DNA of 54,548 nt from Prochlorococcus sp. AG-679-M10 (GTDB lineage Bacteria; Cyanobacteriota; Cyanobacteriia; PCC-6307; Cyanobiaceae). Under the pieces are notes generated by a model. The model ran no database searches. It saw only the letters and a program-made list of their open reading frames with translations, and was not told the DNA's origin. Below, one piece after another: positions 6,033 to 45,400 of this stretch (its first letter is position 1; each line of letters starts with the position of its first letter). The stretch covers positions 1 to 54,548 of the forward strand of contig QCUQ01000006.1 of NCBI GenBank assembly GCA_003210655.1, read 5' to 3'. A program made the translations under genes and the position numbers.

Positions 6033-7046
6033 TTGATTAATTCTGAGAATTCAAATACAAAAAGAATTTCAATTGATTTGCCAGAAGAGCTAGTTTCTAG
6101 GTTTGATCAATTACGAAAAGAATGGGGTTTTAGAGCAAGAGGACCTGTAATAGAAAAGTTGCTTACAGAAATTCTTCAAGAAGAAGAATTATTACCACAA
6201 AGTCAACAACAGACAATTGATTACAGCGAAAAGGGGAATATTAATGAATACTCTAACTTTGATGAAAATAGTGCTTTAGTCCTTATTAAATCTGATAAGG
6301 ATGAGAGTACTAGTACAGAATCCGAAGAAAAACTTCTTTTAAATAATAAAGAAGTTATTGAAAAACCAAACTTAAACATCAACCTACCTAATTTTGTTGG
6401 AAAAAAAGTTAAAAATCTGAGAAGAAGTATAAATATTGAAAAGACAAAACAAAAAATTAATGATATTCAAATTAATACTATTAAGGAAAATGATTTAATT
6501 AAATGTCGGATTGAAATTATAAGCCATTGGAAAAACCTATATGGATCAATTCCAAATGAACAAGTAATAGAAGCATCTATTGATTGGTTTTGTACAGATA
6601 TTTGGCCAAATATTGATGGAACTGAACAGTTGCCATTCACTTGGAGTGCCGCAAATAAATTAATGTCGGATTTATGCCCTTTTTGGATAAAACAAACTCC
6701 CTCTTTAGAGTTAGTTATTTTAATGATAGGTGTATTAGAAGATCCATTTGCAACATCTGATTTAATAAGTAGGGCCCCAACATTAGTAAGAAGATTTATA
6801 AGTAGGTTTAAAAGAAAAAATAAAGGAAATTCATTTGAAGCACTTGATTCAACAATGACTGTTCATGGAGCTCTAAAATTATTAAAGTTATCTACTGCCG
6901 CAGGGTCAGCACATACATTAAATAAAATACGAGAAGCATATAAAATTAAAGCTTTAGAAACCCATCCAGATTCTGGTGGATCTACTGATGAGATGAGGAA
7001 ATTAAATGATGCATATCAATTGCTTAAAAATATGTATAGAAGATAG
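6033..7046 (+). CDS. Ribbon-helix-helix / J-domain-like fusion protein
   Basis: A 337-residue protein with two recognisable ends. Residues ~10-48 look like a CopG/MetJ ribbon-helix-helix DNA-binding unit (RISIDLPEELVSRFDQL followed by a helix ending IEKLLTEIL). Residues ~275-335 look like a DnaJ J-domain with the HPD tripeptide at 311-313 and RKLNDAYQLLK after it. The middle (50-270) has a low-complexity linker and then an unassigned globular part with conserved-looking tryptophans. The start is TTG at 6033; the nearby ATG at 6025 reads only three codons. The known J-domain role is stimulation of Hsp70; coupling to DNA binding is unusual. Function unknown. Confidence 0.75.
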   Translation: MINSENSNTKRISIDLPEELVSRFDQLRKEWGFRARGPVIEKLLTEILQEEELLPQSQQQTIDYSEKGNINEYSNFDENSALVLIKSDKDESTSTESEEKLLLNNKEVIEKPNLNINLPNFVGKKVKNLRRSINIEKTKQKINDIQINTIKENDLIKCRIEIISHWKNLYGSIPNEQVIEASIDWFCTDIWPNIDGTEQLPFTWSAANKLMSDLCPFWIKQTPSLELVILMIGVLEDPFATSDLISRAPTLVRRFISRFKRKNKGNSFEALDSTMTVHGALKLLKLSTAAGSAHTLNKIREAYKIKALETHPDSGGSTDEMRKLNDAYQLLKNMYRR

Positions 7047-7080
7047 TTTTAATAATCTTATATTAGACTTGACCTAAGTC

Positions 7081-7102
7081 TTATTAAAAGTCTTATATAA
7101 GA
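7081..7102 (-). repeat. Palindrome-containing repeat, copy 1 (inverted)
   Basis: Read on the minus strand this is TCTTATATAAGA followed by CTTTTAATAA. The first 12 bases form a perfect palindrome (7091-7102). It matches copy 2 except for two extra T bases between the palindrome tail CTT and AATAA. Confidence 0.7.
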
Positions 7103-7226
7103 TTTATAAGATATAAATTTAAATTTAAAAATTCTCTTACAATTTATTCTTGCTTATCAGAGTAGTTAAAAGTGAATAATGCATATCAAAATGATGCATA
7201 TTTTTAAAATTATGATGTATTAAATT

Positions 7227-7246
7227 TCTTATATAAGACTTAATAA
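7227..7246 (+). repeat. Palindrome-containing repeat, copy 2
   Basis: TCTTATATAAGA (7227-7238, perfect palindrome, identical to copy 1) followed by CTTAATAA. It is in the same orientation as the copy at 7777 on the far side of the small secreted-protein gene, giving a direct-repeat pair about 550 bp apart. Confidence 0.7.
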
Positions 7247-7347
7247 GATAAAGTTCGCAACCCCTCCCTATGTAGAAGAGTTAAATAAATTTCTAAAAAA
7301 TTTTATTACTAGTCTCATAATAGACTTAAAAGTAGTCTACTAATGAA

Positions 7348-7359
7348 TCTTAAATAAGA
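7348..7359. repeat. Palindrome repeat, degenerate copy 3
   Basis: TCTTAAATAAGA differs from the palindrome at 7091 and 7227 by one central base. It lies between AGTAGTCTACT (7331-7341) and the promoter at 7398. Confidence 0.5.
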
Positions 7360-7397
7360 AAATCAATATATAGTCTAATTTTATTATTTACTGTCCT

Positions 7398-7426
7398 TTG
7401 ATTGTCCATTATTAAATTGTTATACT
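7398..7426 (+). promoter_or_regulatory. Candidate sigma70-type promoter reading rightwards
   Basis: TTGATT (7398-7403), a 17-base spacer and TATACT (7421-7426) form a near-ideal promoter. Its transcript would start near 7433 and run into the 3' end of the opposing small gene, so it cannot serve any plus-strand protein gene here. Confidence 0.4.
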
Positions 7427-7432
7427 ATAAAC

Positions 7433-7501
7433 ATTAATATAACTGGGGTTTCAATTAAGAAGTGCTGCCTTAAAGACAGTACTACTGAATTTGTAGTTTT
7501 T
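7433..7501 (+). ncRNA. Candidate short non-coding RNA
   Basis: Downstream of the promoter at 7398-7426 there is an ~28-base unpaired leader, then a stem-loop with arms AGTGCTG (7461-7467) and CAGTACT (7477-7483, one G-U pair), then ACTAC/GTAGT (7481-7485 and 7493-7497) running into TTTTT (7497-7501). The arms of the two hairpins overlap slightly, so they may be alternatives. The RNA would be ~65 nt and antisense to the last codons of the opposing gene. No known Yfr motif is recognised, and the minus-strand terminator reading is an alternative. Confidence 0.3.
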
Positions 7502-7730
7502 GAAGGGCTGTTTCTTTCTCAATGCTTGGAACATCTCTCAAGCCATTCGCATCAAACCAAGGGGCACTTGCCCAATCGAACCCATCTCCAAAAGTATTAT
7601 CTGGTGCTGTGATGTACCAATGGCATGATGAATCCGGTACATCTACAGCACATTTAGACCAATCATCAGACCATTGAGGAACTTGTACCCAAAGAACAGA
7701 AGATATTAAAAATGAGAGAATATTAATCAT
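7482..7730 (-). CDS. Small secreted hypothetical protein
   Basis: An 82-residue protein with a hydrophobic N-terminus (MINILSFLISSVLWVQVP) that reads as a short signal peptide or anchor. The mature part is rich in Trp, Asp and Ser (QWSDDWSKC, PDSSCHWYITAPDN, DWASAPWFDANG) with two cysteines that could form one disulphide. This suggests a small extracytoplasmic protein; I recognise no family. It stands alone between repeat copies at 7227 and 7777, with the latter in its promoter region 47 bases upstream of the start. Confidence 0.7.
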   Translation of the reverse strand: MINILSFLISSVLWVQVPQWSDDWSKCAVDVPDSSCHWYITAPDNTFGDGFDWASAPWFDANGLRDVPSIEKETALQKLQIQ

Positions 7731-7776
7731 GAGTATTATTATATATGATGGTTTAGATTTATACGAATACTAATTA

Positions 7777-7796
7777 TCTCATATAGGACTTAATAA
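7777..7796 (+). repeat. Palindrome-containing repeat, copy 4
   Basis: TCTCATATAGGA followed by CTTAATAA matches copy 2 at 18 of 20 positions and in the same orientation. It lies between the start of the small secreted-protein gene and the end of pheT, where an operator for the small gene would be expected. A further AATAAGTCC follows at about 7807-7815. Confidence 0.6.
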
Positions 7797-7835
7797 AAGA
7801 CTATTAATAAGTCCAGGTTAAGACTAGTGATACAA

Positions 7836-10304
7836 CTAATCTCTTAATTTAGTAGAGAATTTTTTTTCAATATTTTCAACAATACTATCGTGAAGAAATG
7901 CTATGTCAGAATCTAATAATGTTTTTTCAGAATCTCTATAAGATAATCTAAATGTATAGCTTATTAATTCTTTACCAAAACTATCCTCATCATCATAAAC
8001 ATCAATTAAATTACAATCTTCCAATAATTTTTTACCTGATTTTTTTATTTGTGAAATTATTTCACTTACTAAGTATTTTTTATTGAATATAAAATTAATA
8101 TCACGTTCCATTTTGGGAACTGTTGGGAATTGTTTATAAACTGTTATCCATTTATTTTTTCTAGTACATGCTTTTAAGATAGTGTTTATTTTTAAACTAA
8201 ATAAATACATTTTTTTTAATGCTATTTTATTAGAAATTAAATTTGGATGGATTTCACCAAAATATCCGACTTCATTACCTTCAGTAAATAATCTAGTGGA
8301 TCTGCCTGGATGAAGAAAATCAATCGAATCTGTTGATCTATCTTCTATTTTTAAATTTAATATTGATAATGCTTCCTTTAATTTTCCTCTTGCCTCGTAA
8401 TAGGTCAAATTATTATCTTTATTTGAGCCTAGCCATTGTTCAAATTTATTATTTCCATAAATAGCTCCATTTAAGATTTCCTCTTGGGAGAAATCAGGTT
8501 TTTTATTAAAAATATTTCCAACTTCAAATATCCAACAATAGTCATGTCCTGACTTAATATTTTGATTACATATTTTAATATGTTCTTGCCAAATATTATC
8601 TCTCAAACAACTTGTTTCCAAAAGTAATGGATTTGAAATCTTGATTAAATTATTTTTACTTTCTGGCACAAGAGAATAAGACAAAACTTCGTTAAACCCA
8701 TTTGCTATTAATCCTGTTTTTAACTTCCTTAATGCTATTTGAGATGAAGAAAGCTTTCCAGGTTTTATGGGATTTGGTAAATTCAAATCAAACATGTCAT
8801 AACCAATTAATCTTGCAATTTCCTCAATTAAATCAATTTCTCGTAATAAATCTTGGGACCTGTTGGGAACAATTTCTACATCCCATCCGTATTCCTTTAT
8901 TTTTAAGGTACATCCTATTAGCTTTAATTTCTCTGATATTTCATTATCTGATAAATACCTTTTTTCTAATTTACTATTAGTATCGTAATTCTCATTTCTA
9001 ATTACAATTGGACCAAGTATTTTATTAACTCTTTCTCTTCTCAACGGTATTAGTACTTTTGCAGAATCCAATTCTTTGGAAGTATTAATTATTGGATTCA
9101 GAACATTAAAGTATTCTTCTAAAATGTTAATAGCGCGAGTGACTGAATCTAATGTATTTTTATGAGAAATTCCTTTTTCATATCTGCTACTAGATTCAGT
9201 TCTAATTCCAATTTCTTTTGATGATTTTCTTATAGTGACAGGATTAAAAACTGCTCCTTCAAGATATATTGAAGAAGTATCCTCATTTACAGCTGTTTCC
9301 AAACCACCAATGACTCCCGCTATAGCGACTGGTTTGTCGTCACAAGCGATGATAGTTATATTTTCATTTAATTTATAATTCTCACCATTTAAACACAAAA
9401 GATTTTCATTATTATTTGCCTTTCTAATGGAGAAATCTTTATATGTAACCTGTCGGCCAATTAAATTAGATAATTTGTCTTTATCAAATGCATGTAATGG
9501 TTGTCCTTGTTCTAAAAGAATGTAGTTAGTTATGTCTACCAAAAGATTGATAGATTTAATTCCTGATTTATCTAAACGATCTTTGAGCCATCCCGGAGAT
9601 AATTGCTTCCCATTGACAGACTCAATATTGCTAATTGAATAAAGACAATTTTTTGTGATTGCCTCAGGGCAGAGATTAAATTTTTTATAAACATTTGTTT
9701 TATACTTAGTTTTTAAATCTGGAAAGTTTAGCTTAGTTTCCAAAAGAGCAGATATTTCTCTTGCGATGCCAACTACAGACATTCCATCAGGTCTATTTGC
9801 AGTAATTGCTAAATCGTAGATGTAGTCGTTGAGATTAAGTATTTCAGCTCCTGATGTCCCTAATTTATGATTTAAAGCTATATCATCATCAATAATGGCG
9901 ATTCCTTCACTAGTATCTTCTATTCCTAATTCTTCTAGCGAACAAATCATTCCTTCACTAGAAACACCTCTTATTTCACTCTTTTTAATAATTAAATTTA
10001 TCGCACTTAAATGTGTACCAATAGTAGCTACATAAACATATATATTTTGCTTTACATTTTTTGCTCCGCAAACTATTTGTAAAGGATTAGACCTTCCAAT
10101 GTCAACAATACATATAGATAACTTATCTGAATTCTCATGCTTAACTACCGACAAAACCTTTCCAAGAACTATACCTTTTACATTTTCTGAACAATCAACA
10201 AGTGACTCAACTTCGAAACCACCTATTGATAGTTTTTCGGATAAATCGTCTGCTGTAGTATTTATTTCTACAAGGGATTTCAACCAATTCTGTGAGACCT
10301 TCAT
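7836..10304 (-). CDS. pheT: Phenylalanyl-tRNA synthetase beta subunit
   Basis: The large subunit of the (alpha-beta)2 enzyme that charges tRNA-Phe; it carries editing and tRNA binding. The 822 residues begin MKVSQNWLKSLVEI, followed by an OB-fold tRNA-binding domain (about 40-150), the B3/B4 editing region with VAIAGVIGGLETAV, B5, the inactive synthetase-like core, and a C-terminal ferredoxin-like anticodon-binding domain (last ~90 residues, beginning near FPTVPKMERDINF). Length is typical for bacteria. pheS is not in the window. It is divergent from rpmG across ~100 bases. Confidence 0.96.
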   Translation of the reverse strand: MKVSQNWLKSLVEINTTADDLSEKLSIGGFEVESLVDCSENVKGIVLGKVLSVVKHENSDKLSICIVDIGRSNPLQIVCGAKNVKQNIYVYVATIGTHLSAINLIIKKSEIRGVSSEGMICSLEELGIEDTSEGIAIIDDDIALNHKLGTSGAEILNLNDYIYDLAITANRPDGMSVVGIAREISALLETKLNFPDLKTKYKTNVYKKFNLCPEAITKNCLYSISNIESVNGKQLSPGWLKDRLDKSGIKSINLLVDITNYILLEQGQPLHAFDKDKLSNLIGRQVTYKDFSIRKANNNENLLCLNGENYKLNENITIIACDDKPVAIAGVIGGLETAVNEDTSSIYLEGAVFNPVTIRKSSKEIGIRTESSSRYEKGISHKNTLDSVTRAINILEEYFNVLNPIINTSKELDSAKVLIPLRRERVNKILGPIVIRNENYDTNSKLEKRYLSDNEISEKLKLIGCTLKIKEYGWDVEIVPNRSQDLLREIDLIEEIARLIGYDMFDLNLPNPIKPGKLSSSQIALRKLKTGLIANGFNEVLSYSLVPESKNNLIKISNPLLLETSCLRDNIWQEHIKICNQNIKSGHDYCWIFEVGNIFNKKPDFSQEEILNGAIYGNNKFEQWLGSNKDNNLTYYEARGKLKEALSILNLKIEDRSTDSIDFLHPGRSTRLFTEGNEVGYFGEIHPNLISNKIALKKMYLFSLKINTILKACTRKNKWITVYKQFPTVPKMERDINFIFNKKYLVSEIISQIKKSGKKLLEDCNLIDVYDDEDSFGKELISYTFRLSYRDSEKTLLDSDIAFLHDSIVENIEKKFSTKLRD

Positions 10305-37000: not shown

Positions 37001-37592
37001 GGAACAAAGTGGAAAAATTAATGCCATAGGATATGACTTATATATTGAAATGCTTCATGAAGCAATTTCAGAAATAAATGGCCAAGAAATACCTGAAGTA
37101 AATGATACGCAAGTTGATTTGCCGGTTAATGCTTTTATACCTGCAACATGGATATTAAACCGAGAAGAGAAACTAGATGCTTATAAATATGCTACCGAAT
37201 GTACTAACCATAAAGAGCTTACAGAGCTAGCAACTGACTGGTCAAATAGGTATGGGGTTTTACCCAAACCTGTTGAATCCTTAATACTATTAATGAAGTT
37301 AAAATTGTTAGCAAAAAAGTGTGGCTTTAATAAAATTAAACTTAAAAAACCAAATGTAATAATAGAAACTAGGCTAAAAAACTCTACATTTAAACTTATA
37401 AAAAAAGGTTTACCATCAAATATTCAATCAAAATTTAATTATGAAGAAGATGATCAGTTCTCAAAAATAACTATTAGAGGATTAGGTGTCACAGATATTC
37501 AAAATCAAATTGATCAGTTAATCTATTGGTTAGGACTTTTCGTAAAAGAAATAAATAACTTTGATAAAGAAACTTCCGTTACAAAGATCTAA
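34077..37592 (+). CDS. mfd: Transcription-repair coupling factor
   Basis: Removes RNA polymerase stalled at DNA lesions and recruits nucleotide excision repair. The 1171 residues have a UvrB-like N-terminal module, a RNA-polymerase-interaction domain starting NPGDYIVHKNHGIGQF (about 498-513), a RecG-like helicase core with Walker A GDVGFGKT (642-649), DEEQ box and QLRGRVGRSG motif VI, and a C-terminal D7 domain. Length is normal. It is divergent from terC across 74 bases. Confidence 0.97.
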   Translation: MSLNSLISYISNSQIIIELVKRIKHNNELNIIGTSRYAKSIIINSIAKKENKDILLISPNEEIAYKWYGYFDSIDNRNVLYYPPSENLPYASINKSRETEYSQLSVISKIIKKDRKDLNIIITTERSLQPHLITNNQFKENIFTIIKGNELDIKELTKKLVLLGYSKENLTSQEGSWSRRGEIIDIYPVNNELPIRIEFFDNIIEKIREYDPVTQRTLDSIDKVEIVQVGFNLLIRKSLENLSEQGTFNSEEITTKNNLDRYLGIIEEHPSNLLDYITKETLIVIDEKEECNKFSNNWCLESDNNFELHKDEIANSLKSNNINIKVKSNLHEKFESIIKTFSNYNVINLYEFESKRNLDNRFLLSDKRINTSSKNIGKLSKEINKFILNKDKVWILSAQPLRTRSLFFEHECNITYLDKPNDLESAYKLIESSTPVIIKNKNNYEIEGFYLPIWKVILITDKELFSQQALFNNVFIRRRKRSVNSNINVNKINPGDYIVHKNHGIGQFLKIEKINITGESRDYLVIRYLDGKISVAADQLGSINRYRSSGKIKPRINKLGGTEWLKIKDKNRKIIKKVALDILKLYAKREKLKGHIFPEDGPWQKELEESFPYQATPDQITAVKEVKIDMESDKPMDRLVCGDVGFGKTEVAVRAIFKAITSGKQVILLAPTTILAQQHWRTFYNRFSPYPIKVSLLNRFKTNTEKKDIYNGLKNNKIDLVVATHQILGKEIEIKNLGLLVIDEEQRFGVRQKEKIKNIKTNIDVLTLSATPIPRTLYMSLSGLRQMSLLNTPPPSRRSIKTYLSEIDMDVIRTAISQELDRGGQIFYVLPRISDIDQAVNKLKNMFKNLKYIVAHGQMNEIDLENAMIAFNNGEVDLMICTTIIESGLDIPRVNTILIEDSHKFGLSQLYQLRGRVGRSGVQAHAWLFYPNINKINEASKQRLKAIKDFSELGSGYQLAMKDMEIRGVGSLLGEEQSGKINAIGYDLYIEMLHEAISEINGQEIPEVNDTQVDLPVNAFIPATWILNREEKLDAYKYATECTNHKELTELATDWSNRYGVLPKPVESLILLMKLKLLAKKCGFNKIKLKKPNVIIETRLKNSTFKLIKKGLPSNIQSKFNYEEDDQFSKITIRGLGVTDIQNQIDQLIYWLGLFVKEINNFDKETSVTKI

Positions 37593-42417: not shown

Positions 42418-45400
42418 ATGTTTACGCAGGTCCGCTCAGCAAACCGCAGAGTTTCTCCTGTTGAGGATAACAAACATAAAACTGTAATAAAAGCAGTTTA
42501 TGTTGTCCTTGAGCCACAATATCAAAACTCCTTAACAGAAGCTGCAAAATCAATAAATCAAACCAATGGCCCTATAGGGATAGATCTTAGTGGATATCTT
42601 ATAGAAGAACTTAGAAACGATAAAAATTTCGAAGATTTTAAAGTTGATATAGCTAATGCTGATATTTTTGTTGCCTCCCTAATATTTATAGAAGATTTAG
42701 CACAAAAAGTTGTAAATGCAGTTACACCATATAAAGAGAATCTTAAAGCCTCTATAATTTTCCCCTCAATGCCTGAGGTGATGAGATTAAACAAATTGGG
42801 TTCATTTACCATGGCTCAACTTGGACAATCTAAAAGTATTATTGGAGATCTTATTAAAAAGAAAAAAGAATCTGATGGTGCTAGTTTCCAAGATTCAATG
42901 TTGAAGTTACTAAATACCTTACCTTCAATACTCAAATATTTACCTGTAGAAAAAGCACAAGATGCAAGAACATTTATATTAAGTTTTCAATATTGGCTTG
43001 GCGGAACTACAGAAAATCTGAAGAACTTCTTATTAATGATCTCAGAAAAATATGTAGTATCAGAAAATATAAAAGATCAGTTAGAAGAATTTAAAATACA
43101 AGATCCTGAAACTTTTCCAGATTTAGGTATTTGGCATCCATTAGCGCCAAATATGTTTGAAAGTTTAAATGAATATCAAAATTGGGAAAAAAATAGAAAA
43201 GATATAAAACCAAAAGATGATAAAACTCCAACAATTGGATTAGTTCTACAAAGAAGTCACATAGTTACAGGTGATGATGCTCATTATGTAGCCGTAATAC
43301 AAGAATTAGAATATCGAGGAGCTCGTGTTTTACCTATTTTCTGTGGTGGATTAGATTTTTCTAAACCAGTAGATGAATTTTATTATGATTCAATTGATAA
43401 GGAAAGAGCAATAGTTGATGGGGTTGTATCTTTAACAGGATTTGCATTGGTAGGTGGTCCTGCAAGACAAGATCATCCAAAAGCTATTGATGCACTTAAA
43501 AAGCTAAATAGACCATATATGGTTGCATTACCATTAGTATTTCAAACAACTCAAGAATGGGAGGAAAGTGATTTAGGATTACACCCTGTTCAAGTTGCAC
43601 TCCAAATTGCGATACCAGAATTAGACGGAGCTATTGAACCAATTATTCTTTCAGGTCGTGATGATGCTACTGGTAAAGCTCATACTCTCCAAGACAGAGT
43701 AGATGTTATTGCTGAAAGAGCAATAAAGTGGTCCACTCTTAGGGTAAAAAAAAGGGAGGAGAAGAAGTTAGCGATAACTGTATTTAGTTTTCCACCTGAC
43801 AAAGGAAATGTTGGAACAGCAGCTTATTTGAATGTATTTGGTTCTATTTATAGAGTTCTTTTAGAAATGAAAGCTAAAGGGTATCAAATTGATGATCTCC
43901 CTAAAAACTCCAAAGAATTAATGGAGAAAGTCATTAATAATCCAGAGGCTATGGATGGTTCTCCTGAATTAAATATTGCTCATAAGATGACTGTAAAAGA
44001 ATATGAGGAATTTACACCTTATTCAAAGAGATTAGAAGAAAACTGGGGTAAACCTCCTGGAAACTTGAACAGCGATGGACAAAATTTACTTGTTTACGGA
44101 AAACATTTTGGAAATGTATTTATAGGGGTACAACCAACATTTGGATATGAAGGAGATCCAATGAGATTACTTTACTCAAGAAGTGCAAGTCCTCACCATG
44201 GATTCGCCGCTTATTACACATACGTAGAAAAAATATGGGGAGCTGATGCCGTTCTACATTTTGGAACACACGGTTCACTTGAATTTATGCCTGGAAAACA
44301 AATGGGTATGAGTGAAACTTGCTACCCAGATTCTTTAATAGGATCTCTGCCAAATTTATATTATTACGCAGCAAACAATCCATCAGAAGCAACAATTGCA
44401 AAAAGAAGAGGTTATGCATCAACAATAAGTTACCTAACTCCTCCAGCTGAAAATGCTGGTCTTTATAAGGGACTTAAAGAATTGAGTGAGCTTGTAGGTT
44501 CTTATCAACAACTCAGAGAAAGTAGTAGAGGTATTCAAATTATTAATGCAATAGTAGAGACTTCAAAGCAATGTAATCTCGATAAAGATGTAGAACTCCC
44601 TGTTGGTGAGGTTGAGGAACTAACTATTGAAGATAGAGATCTGTTCGTAGGGAATATATATAAGCAATTAATGGAGATAGAAAGTAGATTATTACCATGT
44701 GGACTCCATACAATTGGAGAGGCTCCTACTGCTGAGGAAGCCGTTGCCACCTTAGTAAATATAGCTTCGTTAGAAAGAGAACAAGAAGGTCTTAGATCCT
44801 TACCTGGTTTATTAGCAGAATCAATAAATTTAAAAATTGATGAAGTTTACGACGGTAATAATAAGGGAGAACTTAAGTTTGTTGAATTAAATGAAAAAAT
44901 TATAAAAACTGCCAGAGATAGCATATTTGCAATGGTTAATAGTCTAAAAATTGTTAACGGAAGGGTCTTTTTGGAGAAATCACTATTTTCAAAACTATTA
45001 GATTTCTTGAAGATATTTGGTTTAAATTTACCTACCCCTTGGCTGAGAGTATGTAGATTAAATGGATTTAATGAAGTAAATCAAAAAGAATTAAATAAAT
45101 TATTTGACTATTTATTATTCTGCCTTGAACAGGTATGTGCAGACAAAGAAATGGATAGCCTCATAAAAGCCTTGGATGGAAATTATGTGTTACCTGGGCC
45201 TGGAGGAGATCCTATTAGGAACCCAAGCGTTTTACCAAGTGGTAAAAATATTCATGCACTTGATCCACAATCAATTCCTACTACTGCAGCAGTAGCTGCA
45301 GCTAAATCTGTAGTAGACAAATTAATTGAAAGACAAAAAGAAGAGCAAGGAACTTGGCCTGAAACAATAGCTTGTGTTTTATGGGGTACAGATAATATCA

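Follow-up and report, generated by a model that had tools for sequence, protein, structure and literature searches.

The palindromes repeated between pheT and the gene for RHH-J, a protein resembling ribbon-helix-helix (RHH) domains at its N-terminus and DnaJ at its C-terminus, form part of a locus at the replication-terminus position of Cyanobiaceae chromosomes. There RHH-J, carried on 51-bp repeat modules, probably builds a terminus complex around a dif-like core used by a tyrosine recombinase without FtsK. One such locus lies in the window (the whole stretch of DNA analysed, 54,548 nucleotides of contig QCUQ01000006.1 from Prochlorococcus sp. AG-679-M10). Its features are given below, with modules scored by the number of half-site letters matched (maximum 25).

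6033..7046, plus strand: RHH-J gene, encoding an RHH-like N-terminus (about residues 10-50), a conserved middle and a DnaJ-like C-terminus with HPD
7054..7104, no strand assigned: module 1, 23/25, beginning 7 bp after the RHH-J stop and containing the palindromes at 7056 and 7091
7225..7240, no strand assigned: single palindrome unit, a partial module with the exact copy at 7227
7311..7361, no strand assigned: module 2, 22/25, containing the one-mismatch palindrome at 7348
7393..7408, plus strand: accessory repeats GTCC-N7-GTCCA, the second GTCCA starting 55 bp before the inverted repeat
7459..7485, plus strand: 27-bp core, with inner arms GTGCTG and CAGTAC around 9 bp; the proposed recombination core
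7482..7730, minus strand: 82-residue secreted-protein gene, inside the locus in this genus
7775..7825, no strand assigned: module 3, 21/25, containing the two-mismatch palindrome at 7777
7836..10304, minus strand: pheT, a convergent neighbour given for context only

Re-scanning the window reproduced the TCTTATATAAGA palindrome as the sequence-only reading had placed it: the copies at 7091 and 7227 are exact, that at 7348 has one mismatch and that at 7777 has two. The CTTAATAA tail described for three of the copies follows those at 7227 and 7777 exactly and that at 7091 only loosely. Further one-mismatch copies, which that reading had not noticed, lie at 7056, in the same gap and 35 bp before 7091, and at 42597. 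Matches with up to two mismatches number 12 in the window against a shuffle mean of 14.1. As this is no excess, mismatched copies are meaningless alone, and the case for the palindrome therefore stands on exact copies, spacing and conservation. Exact copies cluster at the gap. The G000 assembly (1.0 Mb, 62% complete) holds only two exact copies, both in this gap, with one match for the reversed-pattern control. Among 18 near-complete genomes of the genus, 24 of 31 exact palindromes sit no more than 1 kb from the 82-residue gene. These are spread over 16 genomes, while two genomes have no exact copy; seven copies are found in other places, and nine matches were obtained with the reversed pattern as control. 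Across 30 gaps from the genus, the window's included, palindromes with up to two mismatches form 58 pairs at a spacing of 35 bp, the next commonest spacing occurring seven times, and a conserved half-site sits midway between those paired exactly 35 bp apart. Chance was rejected as the origin of the palindromes on the strength of exact-copy clustering, the 35-bp spacing, conservation and shuffle tests.

The palindromes are fragments of a 51-bp module comprising five AGTCT/AGACT half-sites at offsets 0, 11, 23, 35 and 46, and three full modules occupy the gap, at 7054, 7311 and 7775. The offsets were read by eye from loci of the genus and a few others (L127 and L133 among them) and then scored; because they derive partly from those few loci outside the genus, the latter are not independent. 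The module directly after the RHH-J stop was compared with 200 shuffles at each of 40 loci outside the genus: at 35 of them no shuffle scored as high as the real sequence, and at the remaining five 1-5 of 200 did. Seven altered half-site spacings average 13.1-15.1 over these 40 loci, against 18.9 for the true spacing. The position of a module beside the RHH-J stop recurs across loci, and every one of the 30 gaps from the genus, including that of the window, has at least three modules scoring at least 19/25. Outside the gap, no module scoring at least 20/25 was found in the window, in 400 kb of each of genomes G015 and G109, or in about 392 kb more of G015; the top score away from the locus in the stretches scanned is 18. 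Such confinement within the window and the two 400-kb stretches is at odds with the dispersed repeat family suggested earlier.

The 82-residue gene is a passenger in the locus. It is matched in 136 of 151 genomes of the genus (51 of 51 at a completeness of at least 90%), and in the 25 genomes outside the genus in which it was placed it has a different position, 0.03-0.45 of the circle away from dnaN. Its prevalence in the genus, together with the persistence of modules beside RHH-J where the gene is elsewhere, tells against the remnant of a small mobile cassette that the palindromes had been thought possibly to represent. Nor are the repeats duplications flanking the gene, because the modules stay at RHH-J when the gene does not. 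Many genomes of the genus have a second copy of the gene; in those compared, which have both copies on one contig, it is about 90-145 kb away. Three such paralogue loci contain no exact palindrome, and two of them have a one-mismatch palindrome.

Operators had also been proposed, and that reading survives in part: half-sites about one helical turn apart beside the gene for an RHH-like protein have the look of protein-binding sites. Ordinary operators, whether for RHH-J, for the 82-residue gene or for a small RNA within the gap, nonetheless seem improbable. RHH proteins are often autoregulators, and the 82-residue gene starts 44 bp from module 3, which is upstream of it, but the modules lie downstream of RHH-J (median best score in loci outside the genus 20 in the 1 kb downstream, only 13 upstream) and persist where the 82-residue gene is elsewhere. 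The palindromes would instead be half-site pairs within 51-bp binding modules for RHH-J, which is encoded directly upstream. Arc half-sites are likewise 11 bp apart, and met boxes have an AGAC core; the array resembles MetJ and Arc operators in its AGAC core and in half-sites about one turn apart, and differs in being a composite 51-bp module downstream of a gene rather than a promoter operator. It also recalls the ParR/parC plasmid centromeres, in which an RHH-like protein is found beside an array of regularly spaced sites, whereas the RHH-J array is at a chromosomal terminus.

RHH-J itself is recognised weakly by existing protein models. Pfam RHH_1 matches its first 60 amino acids at 0.0043, under the gathering score, and the NikR models are also weak; an AlphaFold model of low confidence (pLDDT 41.8) places helices at 18-31 and 37-49. 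Pfam DnaJ (PF00226) matches at 7.9e-6 and, with 26.3 bits against a gathering score of 27.8, falls just under it. Residues H311, P312 and D313 are invariant in 24 aligned sequences (alignment A1), and the C-terminus is, from its sequence, a predicted J domain with the HPD motif. RHH-J is matched in 183 of 198 Cyanobiaceae genomes with at least 90% completeness and at most 5% contamination (185 of 200 in all), and no match was found in the other 15 of the 198, which include all seven genomes of genus g5. One genome, G042, is tallied among the 183 despite a broken copy, in which two fragments lie in different frames (L261, 1638-1887) beside three modules and a core that are intact; natural loss or an assembly error are both possible. 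Among the matches listed from a class-wide search of 195 genomes, full-length RHH-J occurs in this family only, and the matches listed outside Cyanobiaceae cover the DnaJ end.

Between the modules lies a second conserved element. In its general layout GTCCA-N6-GTCCA precedes a CTG-N9-CAG repeat whose matching arms extend further, and in most rows of the alignment the second GTCCA starts 55 bp before this repeat. The CTG-N9-CAG core is present in 30 of 30 loci of the genus, and a pattern rule found the whole element in 38 of the 40 outside (missing in L116 and L131). These 38 and 11 of the 30 loci from the genus gave 49 core rows; alignment A2 omits L007. A loose DNA pattern was abandoned because its hit rate in GC-rich genomes was close to that of the reversed control, and model R1, built without structure from 48 rows, took its place. 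R1 matches all 47 single-contig genomes, from 16 genera, most of the scanned loci having contributed to the model. In each of the 45 genomes for which both positions are available, no more than 1.9 kb separates the best match from the RHH-J start; in the other two, G041 and G050, the best match lies beside the palindromes. For G185 and G234 the match covers the inverted-repeat end alone, and that for G161 is weak (0.0018). Matches away from the main locus were seen only in G181 (G181:C1:759807-759869, 8.7e-6) and, weakly, in G228, in a scan that took at most 96 candidates per genome under strict filters and so may miss weak second sites. Modules bracket the core in 30 of 30 loci of the genus (scores of at least 19) and in 28 of 38 outside it (at least 18), the remaining 10 of the 38 lacking modules on both sides of the core.

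The arms of the core covary, with 46 cells changed on both sides and a covariation score of 0.299, neither of which was reached in 500 shuffles; the pairs with two-sided change (5) and the pair types (11) do not outnumber those of shuffles. Such covariation would be expected of a structured RNA or terminator hairpin, and it also fits a symmetric DNA site. We read the inverted repeat as probably the latter, because unpaired cells (41) far exceed G-U pairs (5) and because, in the 11 rows from the genus, variation falls on the left arm and hardly touches the right. Rfam adds nothing significant, one search returning two matches far under their gathering scores and another returning none. The hairpin is accordingly a very improbable account of the core.

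The locus shares with dif a position at the replication terminus. In 42 of 43 genomes the distance between dnaN and RHH-J is 0.45-0.50 of the circle, the exception being G192 at 0.33; the 43 are those of the 47 single-contig genomes with an RHH-J position, a dnaN position and a contig span, and as their gene order is partly common they are not independent. Homologues of two neighbouring genes of the window nevertheless occur near RHH-J at only some of the 40 outside loci, each covering about 5 kb, Ap4A phosphorylase at 14 and pheT at nine, so the terminus position is not due to one conserved gene block. G-C skew gives no clean switch, and an A-T skew switch is present but noisy. With 400 kb examined in each genome, the A-T skew minimum falls at 849.2 kb in G015, which we take to be MED4, and at 842.0 kb in G109, and the palindromes, at 829.3 kb and 861.5 kb respectively, are about 20 kb from the minimum in each. 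A published reanalysis, in its passages on MED4, takes ter as 826,000-832,000, reports vesicle DNA enriched there and places the highest vesicle-DNA peak 'directly at the dif site' (PMC10913375), the dif sites being described there as taken from earlier literature. The G015 core, at 829,201-829,283, is inside that 826-832 kb peak. Relative to dnaN, the locus is inverted in G015 and G022 compared with G109, G210 and G223, and these opposite orientations are consistent with inversions around the terminus.

Integrase-family matches are found in 47 of 47 genomes. One recurrent, weak-scoring match was followed in 20 of them, one locus from each, and proved to be a divergent tyrosine recombinase with PYDLRH-like and MGHSV...TYHHW motifs in 20 of 20 loci. 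The alignment also has GLRNHE- and TKTGEHQ-like blocks, and we take these motif blocks to be catalytic in role. In the 20 genomes sampled its gene is found 0.27-0.45 of the circle away from dnaN rather than at the terminus. FtsK_SpoIIIE matched above the cutoff in none of the 47 genomes, with two matches below it, while 10 of 14 controls matched, eight of them over the cutoff. Passages of a 2011 survey report dif predicted in none of five cyanobacteria and describe XerCD there as divergent (PMC3025954), and text in PMC5101192 gives xerC as rare in cyanobacteria.

Copies of the core are also present in viruses. Exact versions of the core from host lineages matched seven metagenomic viral contigs (three, none and four per version), the high-light pattern matching no viral contig. 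The host-trained R1 matches all seven, as expected for contigs found by core patterns, and independently matches the isolate P-SCSP1k (37,241-37,326, 1.2e-5), which shares its right arm, CAGTACTAC, with the high-light lineage of its host. By blastn the core stretch occurs in 17 records, all P-SCSP1 and outside annotated genes. The corresponding passage of the literature describes the P-SCSP1 group as 17 isolates with more than 95% identity (PMC9860041), so these records represent one population. P-SCSP1k has no annotated integrase. P-SCSP2 has one, and R1 detects no core in it, nor in KBS-S-2A, P-HS2, MED4-117 or S-H1; the passages on P-SCSP2 in PMC9860041 mention the integrase and no attachment site. 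A stricter repeat script found no copy in six cyanophage records, among them P-SCSP1k with its imperfect arms, and blastn with host or viral core copies gave only weak, unrelated matches. A protein scan covered four of the seven contigs (L262-L268): ten proteins from L263, L266, L267 and L268 gave matches to phage families of RNA polymerase, terminase, primase/helicase, head-tail adaptor or endonuclease, except for one of the ten, which matched no family. For the L267 terminase and for the RNA polymerases from L263 and L268, the top-ranked records are cyanophages, at 40-47% identity. Searching the seven contigs by tblastn with RHH-J and three host recombinases gave no match. GTCCA repeats are at -69, -58 and -47 in P-SCSP1k and at -66 and -55 in the hosts L123 and L136. 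In L265, L266 and L268 the GTCCA pair is on the opposite side of the core from that in hosts, so that the core is flipped relative to the accessory repeats.

Phage carriage could indicate that the core is the remnant attachment site of an old integrated element. Its presence at the same locus in every one of the 47 genomes is, however, too uniform for sporadic insertion, and this origin is hardly credible. More tenable, if still unlikely, is a terminus organiser or fork trap that operates without recombination in the manner of MatP/matS, Tus/Ter or RTP/Ter, with RHH-J and its modules tethering sister termini or arresting forks and the inverted repeat serving as the site of another protein. The terminus position, the RHH-like domain and the clustered palindromic sites would all suit it, and an RHH-like protein with palindromic sites at the terminus is what the locus has in common with MatP/matS. 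The core copies in cyanophages, one with the right arm of its host lineage, would go unexplained. The sites themselves also differ: matS sites are spread over hundreds of kb, whereas within the 400 kb of G015 and of G109 modules scoring at least 20 are clustered in one gap beside the gene, and RHH-J has in addition a DnaJ-like domain.

Resolution by recombination at a dif-like core is the reading we prefer. The locus resembles the dif/XerC-XerD/FtsK system in its terminus position, one main locus per genome, a short inverted repeat, a tyrosine recombinase in the genome and phage-borne copies, the last paralleled by phages that use host Xer. It departs from that system in its 27-bp core of 9+9+9 (dif has 28 bp, 11+6+11), in the single divergent recombinase followed here with FtsK over the cutoff in no genome, and in its GTCCA repeats (-66/-55 in the hosts checked), RHH-J and bracketing modules. 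Because no FtsK match passes the cutoff, and because neither the 28-bp layout nor, in the stretches scanned, a spread of sites is seen, the locus is not filed under dif/Xer or MatP/matS, although it appears to work like the former and in part like the latter.

The modules and RHH-J are thus proposed to mark the replication terminus of Cyanobiaceae chromosomes. Dimers of RHH-J would bind half-sites 11-12 bp apart, coat the modules on both sides of the GTCCA repeats and 27-bp inverted-repeat core, and bridge them into a complex to which the J domain may recruit DnaK. The core would act as a dif-like site for the divergent tyrosine recombinase, which would there resolve dimers of the chromosome or over-replication of the terminus with no need for FtsK, and some cyanophages presumably carry a copy of the core to exploit the same host machinery. 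Among the titles and abstract openings listed from the open-access literature on the Prochlorococcus, Synechococcus or cyanobacterial terminus, dif, Xer, FtsK, MatP and vesicles, and on P-SCSP1, none describes the array or RHH-J. More tentatively, Cyanobiaceae might possess an unrecognised, FtsK-independent form of terminus resolution that combines a dif-like core with GTCCA arms, a divergent recombinase and a chaperone-remodelled RHH-DnaJ complex on the bracketing modules, and that some cyanophages without an annotated integrase might use, through the core of their host lineage, to integrate or to resolve multimers with host enzymes.

For cyanobacteria that are ecologically dominant, the locus provides a concrete candidate dif-like site together with a candidate recombinase and a new protein of the terminus, and its core supplies a sequence for the reported MED4 vesicle-DNA peak. 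The phage copies suggest that phages target the terminus locus. If the proposal is correct, termini would be resolved independently of FtsK in the Cyanobiaceae, a family that includes the most abundant marine phototrophs.
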